From the NCBI RefSeq assembly GCF_000153725.1, contig NZ_DS022276.1, positions 3,205,498-3,245,173 on the forward strand: a stretch of 39,676 nt of DNA, written 5' to 3'. This stretch comes from Salipiger bermudensis HTCC2601. Lineage in GTDB: Bacteria > Pseudomonadota > Alphaproteobacteria > Rhodobacterales > Rhodobacteraceae. The translations under genes and the position numbers were made by a program. The notes beneath the pieces were generated by a model that was given only the letters and a program-made list of their open reading frames with translations, did no database searches and was not told the DNA's origin. How positions within the stretch are numbered: position 1 is the first letter of the stretch; each line of letters opens with the position of its first letter. Positions 24,132 to 28,861 of this stretch are shown here, piece after piece.

Positions 24132-24629
24132 ATGCGCATCGGCCTATATCCCGGCACCTTCGACCCAATCACGCTTGGCCATATCGACATCATCCGCCGC
24201 GCTGCGGCGTTGGTGGATCGACTGGTGATCGGCGTCGCGATCAACCGCGACAAGGGGCCGCTCTTCGATCTCGAGACGCGCGTCGCGATGATCGAGTCGG
24301 AATGCCGGGCCCTCTCCGAAGAGACCGGCACCGAGATCGTCGCCCACCCGTTCGAGAATCTGCTGATCGATTGCGCCCACGATGTCGGCGCGCAGATCAT
24401 CGTCCGCGGCCTGCGCGCGGTCGCGGATTTCGAGTATGAATTCCAGATGGTCGGGATGAACCGGTCGCTTGATGACAGCGTCGAGACGGTGTTCCTGATG
24501 GCCGAAGCCCGGCATCAGGCCATTGCCTCGAAGTTGGTCAAGGAGATCGCGCGTCTCGGCGGCGACGTGAGCAAATTCGTCACGCCACCGGTGCACGAAG
24601 CGCTCGTGAAGCGCTTCGACGGAGCTTAG
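24132..24629 (+). CDS. coaD: Phosphopantetheine adenylyltransferase
   Basis: A 165-residue PPAT, the normal length. Nucleotidyltransferase motifs are YPGTFDPITLGHIDII at the N-terminus (the T/HxGH site), RGLRAVADFEYEFQMVGMNR, and the C-terminal ASKLVKEIARLGGDVSKFV. It transfers AMP from ATP to 4'-phosphopantetheine, the fourth step of coenzyme A synthesis. It is cytosolic and essential in most bacteria. Upstream (24088-24095) lies CAATATTG, a short palindrome that may belong to its promoter. The stop overlaps the 3' end of the convergent DUF1127-like gene. Confidence 0.97.
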   Translation: MRIGLYPGTFDPITLGHIDIIRRAAALVDRLVIGVAINRDKGPLFDLETRVAMIESECRALSEETGTEIVAHPFENLLIDCAHDVGAQIIVRGLRAVADFEYEFQMVGMNRSLDDSVETVFLMAEARHQAIASKLVKEIARLGGDVSKFVTPPVHEALVKRFDGA

Positions 24630-24772
24630 GCGCCGTAGACCGCGCGGCGGGCAATCTCGTTCTCGTGCCCGGCAATGTCGCAGTCCATGCGCGTGCGCTC
24701 GGGCAGGTTGCGCAGCGTGTAGAGCGTGCGGCGATAGGCGTAGCGGCGGTAGATGTTGTTCAGTACGGTCAT
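24626..24772 (-). CDS. DUF1127-like mini-protein A (48 aa)
   Basis: A 48-residue basic protein, MTVLNNIYRRYAYRRTLYTL and onward, ending REL-like LPERTRMDCDIAGHENEIARRAVYGA. Its layout (basic N-terminal helix, L..L, then D(I)..., then an R-rich tail) matches DUF1127 proteins, which are abundant in alphaproteobacteria; some bind RNA or affect phosphate and carbon metabolism. AAGGA lies upstream at a proper distance. It ends by overlapping the coaD stop region. A second copy of the family lies 34 bases upstream on the same strand, and both end in AVYG. Function here is unknown. Confidence 0.78.
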   Translation of the reverse strand: MTVLNNIYRRYAYRRTLYTLRNLPERTRMDCDIAGHENEIARRAVYGA

Positions 24773-24806: not shown

Positions 24807-24980
24807 TCAGGCGCGGGCCTGACCGTAGACGGCCTCTGATGCGATGCGGCGCAGGTCGCCGCGGTAGATGTCCAGATCGAGCGCGGTGTCGAGCGACATC
24901 CGGCGCAGTTCGCGCAGGGTGCGCTTGTACCGGGCGCGCTGATCAAGACGGGTTCTGAGCGTTGCGATAAGGCGGGTCAT
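24807..24980 (-). CDS. DUF1127-like mini-protein B (57 aa)
   Basis: A 57-residue protein read from the ATG at 24980: MTRLIATLRTRLDQRARYKR, then TLRELRRMSLDTALDLDIYR, ending RRIASEAVYGQARA. The L..L, DLDIYRGDLRRIA core is a good match to the DUF1127 pattern. GGAGA sits 8 bases upstream of the ATG. The gene is too short for standard length cut-offs. It is the first of two tandem paralogues, so the pair probably arose by duplication and may be cotranscribed. Cytosolic, highly basic, possibly RNA-binding by analogy with characterised family members. Confidence 0.8.
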   Translation of the reverse strand: MTRLIATLRTRLDQRARYKRTLRELRRMSLDTALDLDIYRGDLRRIASEAVYGQARA

Positions 24981-26700: not shown

Positions 26701-26844
26701 TTAGCGCCAGAAGGCCATCCAATCCAGCAATGCGAAGAACTTACGCCCCAGAAACACCAAATGCTCCGAGCCCCAGATCAGGGTGTCCGCGGCCAGCGCA
26801 GCGAGGATCAGCAGCCCGATCCATATGGCGATCCGATTGGTCAT
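26701..26844 (-). CDS. 47-aa single-helix membrane protein upstream of gap
   Basis: Read from the ATG at 26844: MTNRIAIWIGLLILAALAAD, then TLIWGSEHLVFLGRKFFALL, ending DWMAFWR. The first half is one membrane helix; the second is amphipathic with conserved-looking Trp and Phe. I recall short roseobacter peptides of this form next to gap, sometimes mislabelled as GAPDH, but cannot check this here. It sits between the membrane LuxR gene (32 bases upstream) and gap. Function is unknown; a small regulatory or membrane-tethering role is possible. Confidence 0.68.
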   Translation of the reverse strand: MTNRIAIWIGLLILAALAADTLIWGSEHLVFLGRKFFALLDWMAFWR

Positions 26845-26876: not shown

Positions 26877-27404
26877 TCACGCGCGATCTGGCGCGCTGCC
26901 GGGGGCGGTGGTCATCAGTTCCTCGATGAACAGGCTGAGAAAGGCGCCGCGCCCGTTGACGCCGGCTTTCCGATAGATGCCGTTGAGATGGGATTTCACC
27001 GTGCCCTCCGCAGACCCGCGCAGCTCGGCGATCTCGGGGATCGACAGGCCCTTGAGAGTGAACATCGCCACGTCCTCTTCCGACGGGGTCAGGCCCCAGC
27101 CGCGAAACTGCGCCGCGACGATGTCGTGAAAGGCGCCCGAGGCCAGCGACAGTTGCCGCTCGAGATGGGCCTTGCGCCGCAGCAGGGCCATCAGCCAGCG
27201 GATCTCGACGGCCACGGCGGCGATCAGGCTGAGCGCGGCTGCGAACTCGATCATGAAATGCCAGTGGGTGAAGGGGGGCCAGCCGATCTCGAGGCCGTCG
27301 CTGGCGACGTCGGCAAGGAAGAACGCCGCGCAGAGGCTCTGCACGGCGATCAGCGCCATCATCGGAGAGGCGCGCTCGGAGGCGGGCAGGACTCGATCCG
27401 TCAT
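26877..27404 (-). CDS. Membrane-anchored LuxR-type transcriptional regulator
   Basis: A 175-residue protein with two predicted membrane helices (about 14-32 and 50-70, SLIAAVAVEIRWLM), a short helical linker (KAHLERQLSLASGAF), then a complete LuxR/GerE HTH (106-162: LTPSEEDVAMFTLKGLSIPEIAELRGSAEGTVKSHLNGIYRKAGV). There is no receiver or PAS domain, so the signal should arrive through the membrane part. Its ATG overlaps the cytochrome b stop by 4 bases (ATGA), implying coupled translation and a functional link to that redox protein. A one-component regulator anchored in the inner membrane is the likely role. Confidence 0.85.
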   Translation of the reverse strand: MTDRVLPASERASPMMALIAVQSLCAAFFLADVASDGLEIGWPPFTHWHFMIEFAAALSLIAAVAVEIRWLMALLRRKAHLERQLSLASGAFHDIVAAQFRGWGLTPSEEDVAMFTLKGLSIPEIAELRGSAEGTVKSHLNGIYRKAGVNGRGAFLSLFIEELMTTAPGSAPDRA

Positions 27405-27940
27405 GGCTCGATCTTTGCACCCTCCGGCACGGATTTGGTACCTGTGATCATCGCCCGCGGCAGATTGACCCCGGTGCGCAGGCTGTCGAAGACCACCGCG
27501 CCGACATGCAGGAAGACCGAGATCTCCGCCCATGTGACCAGCGCCTCGTGGGTCTCCTCGACCCAGTCGACGCCCCAGAAGGCGTTGGTCGTCATCATGT
27601 AGCCGGTCGCCACGATGGCGGCGAGGGTGAGCAGCAGGTTGAAGATCATCAGCGCCCCGAGCGGCGTGTGCATCAGATGCACCCGGCGCCGCCCGGTGGC
27701 CATGTCTGTCAGTTGGCCACGGATGCCGGAGCGGCTTGGCAGGAAGCTCGAGAAGCGCGCCGAGTGCGGTCCGACGACGCCCCAGATCAGTCGGATCACC
27801 AGCAGCGCCGCGATGGCGTAGCCGATGGTCTCGTGCAGCTGGCTCTCGGGATCGGTGAGCAGGGCGTTGGCGATGAAGAAGCCCGCGAGGCTCCAGTGGA
27901 ACAGCCGCAGCAGCGGGTCCCATATGTAATGGCGTGTCAT
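27401..27940 (-). CDS. Cytochrome b561 / Ni,Fe-hydrogenase b-type membrane cytochrome
   Basis: A 179-residue four-helix membrane protein. It starts MTRHYIWDPLLRLFHWSLAG, the classic opening of this family, with haem-ligand candidates His15 (LFHWS), His36 (QLHETIGY), and later histidines in EETHEALVTWAEISVFLHVGAV. Such proteins carry two haem b groups and move electrons between the quinone pool and a partner. No hydrogenase genes are nearby; the neighbours are a PepSY protein 77 bases upstream and the overlapping membrane LuxR gene. A sensory or regulatory redox role is therefore plausible. Confidence 0.88.
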   Translation of the reverse strand: MTRHYIWDPLLRLFHWSLAGFFIANALLTDPESQLHETIGYAIAALLVIRLIWGVVGPHSARFSSFLPSRSGIRGQLTDMATGRRRVHLMHTPLGALMIFNLLLTLAAIVATGYMMTTNAFWGVDWVEETHEALVTWAEISVFLHVGAVVFDSLRTGVNLPRAMITGTKSVPEGAKIEP

Positions 27941-28017
27941 GGGGGGCTCCCGAAAGAGGGGGCGCGGCCCGGGGAAACATCCGGGGGGACAGACGACGGG
28001 CCGCGCCGGGCGGCGGC

Positions 28018-28263
28018 TCAGTCTTCGGTCTTGCTGCGCACGACGTTCAGATCGGCGTCAAGATAGAGTTCGAACCGCTCGCCGTTCTTGAGGGCATAGA
28101 CCTCGATCATGCCGTCCTCGTTGTCGATCTTGCGGACCTCGTAGCCCTCTGCGGTGAGCTTCCCTCGGATCTGGCTCTGGGTGGCGGCGTCGACGTCAGG
28201 CGAGGCGAAGGCCGGTCCGGCAAGGGCGAGGGCGGTCAGGGCGGCGGCGATGGATTTGATCAT
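28018..28263 (-). CDS. Small periplasmic PepSY-domain protein
   Basis: An 81-residue protein with a clear signal peptide (MIKSIAAALTALALAGPAFA, cleavage near ASPD). The mature part is a single PepSY unit: QSQIRGKLTAEGYEVRKIDN, MIEVYALKNGERFELYLDADL. PepSY units are thought to bind or inhibit partner proteins outside the cytoplasm. AGGAGA precedes the ATG. It is the first gene of a three-gene cassette with cytochrome b and the membrane LuxR, so it may be the periplasmic sensor or modulator of that unit. Confidence 0.85.
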   Translation of the reverse strand: MIKSIAAALTALALAGPAFASPDVDAATQSQIRGKLTAEGYEVRKIDNEDGMIEVYALKNGERFELYLDADLNVVRSKTED

Positions 28264-28347
28264 GGGGGTCTCCTGTCGAGGATGGACGGGGCCGGGGGAT
28301 CCGGCGCCTCGTGGACAGGAGATGTCAGCCTCGGCGGGCCTGGACCA

Positions 28348-28363
28348 TGCATCAAAGGATGCA
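28348..28363. promoter_or_regulatory. Inverted repeat TGCATC-AAAG-GATGCA upstream of the PepSY gene
   Basis: A perfect 6-bp inverted repeat with a 4-base spacer, 85 bases upstream of the PepSY start and 25 bases beyond the dsbB stop. It lacks a T-run, so it looks more like a regulator box than an intrinsic terminator. It is a candidate binding site for the LuxR protein encoded in the cassette. Confidence 0.45.
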
Positions 28364-28387
28364 GATCCGGGCCTCTGCAACTTTGGT

Positions 28388-28861
28388 TCAGGCCTTGCTT
28401 TTAAGGGCGGCCCAGATCCAGAGCGCCATGAAGACGAGGCTGGCGATGGTGTTCCAGCTGGCCATGGACAGGCCGAAAAGATCCCAGAGCACGTCGTCGC
28501 AGCGCTGGATCTCGGCGCTCATGATCTGGTTGAGAAGGTCGTCGGCACTGATGCCGGTGACCGAGCCGGAGGCGGTGCAGCTGGTCGGGCCTTCCCACCA
28601 GCCGCGCTCGACGCCGGTGTGGTAGAAGCCGATGCCGGCGGTGCTCAGCGCCGCAAGCGCACCGAGGCTCGGCAGCGCCGGGCCGCGGGTGGCCAGGGCG
28701 CCGAGCGCGATCACCACGGCGGCGACATGCGGCCAGCGCTGGTAGATGCACAGCTTGCAGGGCGGCAGATCGCCCAGGTACTGGAAGCCGAGCGCCCCCA
28801 GCAGCACAGCGACAGAGCCGGCGGCGGCCAGCAGGATGAGAAGGTTGCGGGTCGGTGTCAT
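28388..28861 (-). CDS. dsbB: Disulfide bond formation protein B (DsbB-like)
   Basis: A 157-residue membrane protein with four helices. The first periplasmic loop has the redox pair PPCKLCIYQRWPH, and the second carries two further cysteines (PTSCTASG and IQRCDDV), the full DsbB set. It reoxidises DsbA and passes electrons to quinone. The ATG at 28861 overlaps the DedA gene stop by 4 bases, so the two are cotranscribed. The length is a little short of E. coli DsbB but normal for alphaproteobacteria. Confidence 0.9.
   Translation of the reverse strand: MTPTRNLLILLAAAGSVAVLLGALGFQYLGDLPPCKLCIYQRWPHVAAVVIALGALATRGPALPSLGALAALSTAGIGFYHTGVERGWWEGPTSCTASGSVTGISADDLLNQIMSAEIQRCDDVLWDLFGLSMASWNTIASLVFMALWIWAALKSKA

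Follow-up and report, generated by a model that had tools for sequence, protein, structure and literature searches.

A PepSY–cytochrome b561–LuxR gene trio of Salipiger bermudensis as one version of a wider PepSY-regulator pattern in Rhodobacteraceae

The involvement of PepSY proteins in bacterial signalling is exemplified by DbfQRS of Vibrio cholerae, in which the PepSY protein DbfQ is described as binding the sensory domain of the kinase DbfS and shifting its activity (PMC12714742). According to the accessible part of that source, PepSY genes are found close to two-component genes more than 60 times as often as chance would give, and in some species a DbfQRS-type module has a single PepSY gene or two consecutive ones (PMC12714742). 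Likewise, BqsPQRS (CarRS) of Pseudomonas aeruginosa harbours two PepSY genes (PA2658 and PA2659) beside its regulatory pair; it is a two-component system, the accessible text on it mentions no cytochrome, and BqsRS is listed there as Fe(II)-sensing (PMC12802237). Among cytochromes of the b561 type, an excerpted source reports that CybB oxidises superoxide and feeds ubiquinone, and that LcoA works with the secreted lipocalin BcnA against lipid peroxidation, the b561 gene adjoining that of the small secreted protein (PMC9113575). Members of another PepSY family, the PepSY-like membrane reductases, are reported beside VIT1 in the available portion of a further source (PMC8238504). A search of the open-access literature returned no paper on a PepSY plus b561, a PepSY plus one-component or a PepSY plus cytochrome b561 plus two-component operon; the initial annotation of the locus described here had likewise pointed to no named system of PepSY, b561 and LuxR, and none was found in the same literature. 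Expression data on such a trio were not found either, and a stress study of D. shibae names b561 genes and, in the text available, neither PepSY nor LuxR (PMC4373377).

The window analysed here is a stretch of 39,676 nucleotides from Salipiger bermudensis HTCC2601. Its minus strand encodes, in this order, a PepSY_2 protein of 81 aa (28263-28018), a cytochrome b561-type protein (Ni_hydr_CYTB) of 179 aa (27940-27401) and a membrane-anchored LuxR-type regulator of 175 aa (27404-26877), and the Salipiger gene order reads dedA, dsbB, PepSY, cytochrome, regulator, a 47-aa membrane ORF and gap (GAPDH). The collinearity, the 77-base gap between PepSY and cytochrome and the 4-base overlap between cytochrome and regulator, all noted in the initial annotation, which left the strand unstated, were confirmed. 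In this overlap (ATGA at 27401-27404) the regulator ATG shares 4 bases with the cytochrome TGA, and the same overlap recurs in 30 of 37 cytochrome-LuxR pairs, a set in which two species are counted twice and one pair (L069) is spurious. As in DbfQRS, a small exported PepSY gene lies directly upstream of the signalling genes; however, a histidine kinase and a response regulator follow there, whereas here a single membrane LuxR with neither kinase nor receiver is found and a b561 is added in the trio. Compared with a PepSY two-component module, the locus has the adjacent exported PepSY gene but lacks the kinase and the receiver, and no kinase ORF lies between dsbB and gap in the window. The 47-aa ORF (26701-26844, minus strand) encodes a single-helix membrane protein just upstream of gap and is kept throughout Salipiger and in some further genera; at E 1 neither Pfam nor NCBIfam matched it. 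It was considered as a fourth part of the cassette and rejected, as it remains at gap where the trio is missing.

The window PepSY protein, with a signal-peptide-like start and one PepSY domain, scores 54.1 bits against PF13670 (PepSY_2; cut-off 24.3), and its model retrieved nothing below E 0.001 with Foldseek (best 4exr at E 0.33; YpeB 5boi at rank 6, E 0.47). The cytochrome exceeds the PF01292 cut-off (73.4 bits against 30.1), and His15, His36, His91, His131 and His145 are invariant across 23 aligned rows. Four of these (H15, H36, H131 and H145), which we take to be the four haem-ligand histidines of the cytochrome b561 family, align with the histidines of CybB, and the pattern also aligns with HyaC; the earlier identification of a haem protein is thus upheld by the retention of four histidines aligned with those of b561 proteins. 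By family membership, the protein is likely to be a dihaem, quinone-linked b561. Its solved relatives, E. coli HyaC (4gd3) and the superoxide oxidase CybB (5oc0), are b-type cytochromes of the same broad family but are distant (34.6 and 24.9 bits, respectively) and belong to different operons. With TIGR02125 (Ni/Fe-hydrogenase b-type subunit) the match is 16.9 bits against a cut-off of 121.5. A hydrogenase operon, which had been named as a possible refutation of the cassette, was rejected, as visual inspection of the ORFs between 22000 and 34000 revealed no hydrogenase gene.

The regulator lies 0.1 bits under the GerE cut-off (PF00196; 23.4 against 23.5). Its model (mean pLDDT 90.1) comprises helices 8-40 and 48-103 and then the HTH (107-165), and the Pfam matches include no receiver domain, in agreement with the first description of the gene. 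The protein is thus modelled as a two-helix membrane anchor whose second helix continues into a rod-like one, followed by a LuxR-type HTH; on the predicted topology, the periplasmic tip is short. Foldseek placed StyR 1yio, NarL 1je8 and GerE 1fse at probability 1.00, with a best E of 0.0025 and no match at E < 0.001. The best NCBIfam match, LIC13292 (NF047608), covers residues 72-164 with 56.1 bits, yet far below the family cut-off of 200, and no paper under that name was found in the open-access literature. The membrane-bound or transmembrane LuxR proteins of Eggerthella and Gordonibacter presumably represent another family.

The co-occurrence check proposed with the initial annotation was carried out across Rhodobacteraceae: of 120 family genomes from 119 genera, 28 have the PepSY-CytB-LuxR order, at 29 loci in total, and three plasmids, from P. 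fistulariae, Sulfitobacter and Thioclava, carry it as well. The three genes form a conserved unit. Could they nevertheless be ordinary chromosomal neighbours with no functional tie, their order inherited at one locus? The placement between dsbB and gap in 13 of 20 same-genus genomes would fit this, but the order recurs outside the genus at sites unrelated to this one and also on plasmids, which makes it highly unlikely; among the matches listed, with names assigned by eye, the trio adjoins ssb, petABC-like and other genes at many different sites. It is this conservation elsewhere, and not the TGCATC repeat upstream of the first gene, by which the cassette exceeds chance. The dsbB-gap junction is kept in all seven of the 20 genus members without the trio, six of which show none of the three genes there. 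The seventh (G003, locus L200) retains PepSY and part of the promoter block, with CytB and LuxR gone, L203 retains the promoter block alone and L198 a decayed-looking version; these residual blocks suggest loss of the trio in at least these genomes, while gain and loss cannot be told apart in the remaining trio-less Salipiger genomes. One of the 13 ordered trios has its cytochrome match divided between two reading frames (L007, 1468-2538), perhaps through a frameshift or an assembly error. On the 7.5-kb mobilizable plasmid p7465 of P. fistulariae (L063), PepSY-CytB-LuxR-VIT lies beside replication, mobilization and toxin-antitoxin genes, and CytB-LuxR and LuxR-VIT each overlap by 4 bases. At the ssb-linked loci L077, L097, L100, L103 and L106, a secreted protein of about 200 aa is encoded after the regulator gene.

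The window trio is one version of a wider PepSY-regulator pattern. A regulator alignment search at E 1e-12 gave matches in 76 of 120 family and 14 of 200 phylum genomes, HTH-only matches included; eight HTH-only matches (starting at profile position 61 or later) were left out, and five genomes had only these, leaving 71. In these 71 genomes, 104 membrane-LuxR loci were counted, 89 of them with PepSY within 1.5 kb upstream: 29 PepSY-CytB-LuxR (28 genomes), 60 PepSY only (53 genomes; 32 with one and 28 with two PepSY genes within 1.5 kb upstream) and 15 without PepSY, two of which lie at contig ends, leaving 13 of 104. Loci outside the family sample (L079, L182-L184, L186-L189) were excluded from the 104, L185 repeats L183 and L191 repeats L088, and no regulator row was obtained for L093 (internal stops) and L179 (cut by a contig end). 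A PepSY-linked copy occurs in 64 of the 71 genomes, and both versions in 17. At the 60 PepSY-only loci, many of which sit between trpB and pth, the nearest PepSY lies a median of 56 bases upstream (57 within 160 bases, three farther). Across 114 loci, 110 of 113 PepSY ORFs and 30 of 33 CytB ORFs share the strand of the regulator and are found no farther than 1.5 kb upstream of it; the PepSY profile behind this count started from the window PepSY and was extended with the first 76 loci, fetched via CytB or LuxR, some of which recur among the 114, such that the profile is not blind, while position was not required of its members. Judging from these neighbourhoods, the usual partner of the regulator is PepSY and not the cytochrome. 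The earlier proposal of PepSY as a periplasmic modulator is accordingly judged plausible, whereas the suggested coupling of the regulator to a haem protein, by which electron flow or quinone state might be sensed, could apply to only part of the class: a dihaem b561-type cytochrome lies between PepSY and regulator in about a third of the PepSY-linked loci (29 of 89, window included), but it is absent from between them in 60 of 89, and PepSY-CytB occurs without the regulator, so that regulator plus haem is not the core.

Our preferred reading, held with slightly better than even confidence, is that of a kinase-free, PepSY-linked transmembrane signalling unit, a counterpart of DbfQRS and BqsPQRS which would regulate its own operon and to which the b561 of the trio would add a redox step. 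Counted against it are the 13 PepSY-less regulators, the G003 remnant, PepSY-CytB without a regulator and L077, whose regulator belongs to the trio group of the tree and occupies the ssb-linked place where relatives have the trio, with PepSY and CytB missing and the secreted protein remaining. The PepSY proteins of loci without cytochrome are mostly of another subtype, with an RTxLGR motif and acidic tails, and only 11 of 62 PepSY-only-locus partners reach Pfam PepSY_2 at E 0.01; this type is modelled as one helix plus four strands, and profile comparison shows its homology to the trio type (hhalign 97.3%, E 1.9e-11). In loci without CytB, more than 40 residues with over 30% D+E follow the PepSY domain in 34 of the 62 near copies and 28 of the 32 farther ones, and it is conceivable that such Asp/Glu-rich tails bind divalent cations.

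Within the membrane part of the regulator, conserved His or Cys residues had been proposed as a check, and this was borne out in part: the region carries acids and one His (D32, D/E36, H49 and E53), and C25 is conserved in 86 of 111 regulator rows, beside Q22 in 99, E53 in 98 and D32 in 83. The set of D32, D/E36, H49 and E53 occurs in 27 of 29 regulators with cytochrome (28 trios plus L188, which has CytB without PepSY; the partial L176 was left out), in none of 64 with PepSY only and in 9 of 18 with neither neighbour, a split that partly tracks the regulator tree; the last of these counts suggests that the set may be of ancestral origin. In a quick maximum-likelihood tree of the 111 regulators, cytochrome-linked rows fall in few groups (8 changes against a shuffled mean of 25.7). 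The window regulator falls in a group of 16 (support 99), 15 of whose rows are cytochrome-linked, and a group of 63 (support 92) contains 58 of the 64 PepSY-only rows; since 54 of 108 inner branches are open, a single origin cannot be distinguished from several. Co-expression only, with the membrane LuxR alone sensing the membrane state or a small ligand and PepSY and CytB outside signalling, would agree with the conserved polar residues in the membrane part alone, with the retention of D32, D/E36, H49 and E53 in half of the regulators that have neither neighbour and with the PepSY-less regulators away from contig ends. PepSY upstream in 89 of 104 loci and the trio at many different genome sites speak against it, and we consider it unlikely.

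A further alternative takes PepSY as the partner of the cytochrome, the two forming an envelope redox pair (a metal reductase, superoxide oxidase or radical quencher, comparable to BcnA with LcoA) which LuxR merely controls, as a two-component system may in rhizobia. PepSY-CytB pairs without the regulator do occur in Ensifer, Sinorhizobium, P. marcusii and a Pseudorhodobacter MAG (L046); the Ensifer pair adjoins a PepSY-response regulator-kinase set and the Sinorhizobium pair a response regulator. Furthermore, a VIT-family transporter lies directly next to the trio on the P. fistulariae and Sulfitobacter plasmids and adjoins trio L146, the P. marcusii PepSY-CytB and a Shinella CytB, although only one of the 29 sample trios has such a neighbour. 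As described in the accessible text, lcoA-bcnA serves as a precedent, but it involves a lipocalin instead of PepSY, and no regulator is named in its three-gene operon (PMC9113575); VIT1 beside PepSY-like reductases, as far as the source seen goes, concerns another PepSY family (PMC8238504). The 60 of 89 PepSY-linked regulators without a cytochrome between, together with the homology of the trio PepSY to that of cytochrome-less loci, argue against this pairing, which is doubtful as the main explanation; both pairings may be true.

With regard to the control of its own operon, which the signalling-unit reading postulates, the DNA upstream of PepSY was compared among loci. The perfect TGCATC-AAAG-GATGCA repeat noticed initially is present at 28348..28363, but it did not prove to be a conserved site, its spelt halves occurring in 0 of 190 other loci. 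As a palindrome it is not rare, since the window holds 26 perfect 6-N4-6 palindromes (0.08 expected in the 124-base gap), and in the near relative L002 its place is taken by TGCACC-CCGC-GGTGCA, also a perfect dyad. A second perfect palindrome, TGCAGATCCGGGCCTCTGCA (28360..28379), overlaps both the TGCATC repeat and a conserved block, with a terminator-like score on the plus strand. This block, revealed by upstream alignment and a candidate operator, lies beside the repeat at 28375..28391 on the minus strand (CTGAACCAAAGTTGCAG) and overlaps the dsbB stop codon; the form AACCAAAGTTGCAG is exact in 11 of 14 PepSY-upstream alignments (13 Salipiger and one Maliponia) and stands just after dsbB in Salipiger. 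The TGCATC repeat, conserved only in part and not as such, was hence dropped as the operator, and the AACCAAAGTTGCAG block together with a TAAACC dyad was put in its place.

Among 7-base words upstream of PepSY, CATAAAC, GGTTTAT and ATAAACC lead at the PepSY-only loci; at the trio loci the leading words are CTAAACC and GAAAGGA, the latter resembling a ribosome site. In both sets alike, the TAAACC/GGTTTA inverted pair has a spacer peak at 2-3 bases, and the PepSY-only set shows lesser peaks near 11-13 and head-out peaks at 6 and 12, as repeated copies would give. Dinucleotide shuffles were used as the control, since that for the spacer counts was mostly coding DNA. With up to two mismatches, TAAACC-N2/3-GGTTTA occurs in 34 of 63 PepSY-only upstream regions (one of 64 being too short) and in 14 of 52 trio regions (29 sample loci plus 23 fetched earlier, 51 of them distinct as L044 is the L097 locus), compared with 0.65 and 0.35, respectively, in 20 shuffles, which control for base make-up and not for the choice of the half-site on the same regions. 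The remaining 38 trio promoters, the window's own included, are without the motif at two mismatches; the window block is a weaker dyad tied to TAAACC by likeness only, and on this likeness it is taken as the Salipiger form of the motif and a candidate operator. When up to three mismatches are allowed, additional copies appear at distances of about 20 or 47 bases in several PepSY-only promoters, and it is a guess that the TGCATC repeat, standing about where a second copy would, is one. No sigma-70 promoter was found upstream of PepSY by consensus.

In five genomes preselected for an operon copy, the perfect N2 form occurs once per whole genome, at the operon; 10 of 15 genomes scanned are without a perfect N2 copy, and in one of the 15 (G114) the regulator search had given no locus. 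A one-mismatch scan of eight genomes chosen for having the site gave 10 further sites against 24 in the reversed control. A wider regulon was considered on account of a one-mismatch copy in the organism's own genome (AACCAAAGTTACAG, 18 bases before a PstS-like gene, named by eye), which was read as chance; longer-form matches at two mismatches or fewer are on a par with the control (35 and 32, with 35 and 26 in the control).

For the kinase-free signalling unit, the following course is envisaged. PepSY in the periplasm would contact the short periplasmic tip of a regulator dimer and hold it in one state, a gating proposed on account of the DbfQRS-like layout, without the kinase. A metal or redox cue would then alter this contact; such a cue appears likely from the acid/His cluster, the few VIT neighbours and the metal-related annotated setting of the plasmid loci L067 and L066, and a metal or a proton may be bound by D32, D/E36, H49 and E53, residues located where each of the two helices has its outer end. 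The continuous helix could relay the change to the HTH, which would bind the inverted repeat and control its own operon, while the trio cytochrome might connect the quinone pool and the periplasmic side by electron transfer, either as a controlled output or as the redox input. More tentatively, these loci may represent an undescribed, widespread Rhodobacteraceae class in which PepSY gates a LuxR protein binding a dedicated palindrome, with electron transfer across the membrane acting directly on the transcription factor in the third that carries b561. If true, PepSY signalling would also exist in a smaller form, free of a kinase and equipped with its own operator, that is easy to rebuild and test, and many genes at present annotated as hypothetical or simply as LuxR would gain a function. 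With the trio, one could additionally ask whether a membrane-bound transcription factor can be driven by a haem protein.

Elsewhere in the window, two short Arg-rich ORFs lie in tandem on the minus strand (24626-24772 and 24807-24980), and we take these to resemble DUF1127/YjiS-type small proteins.
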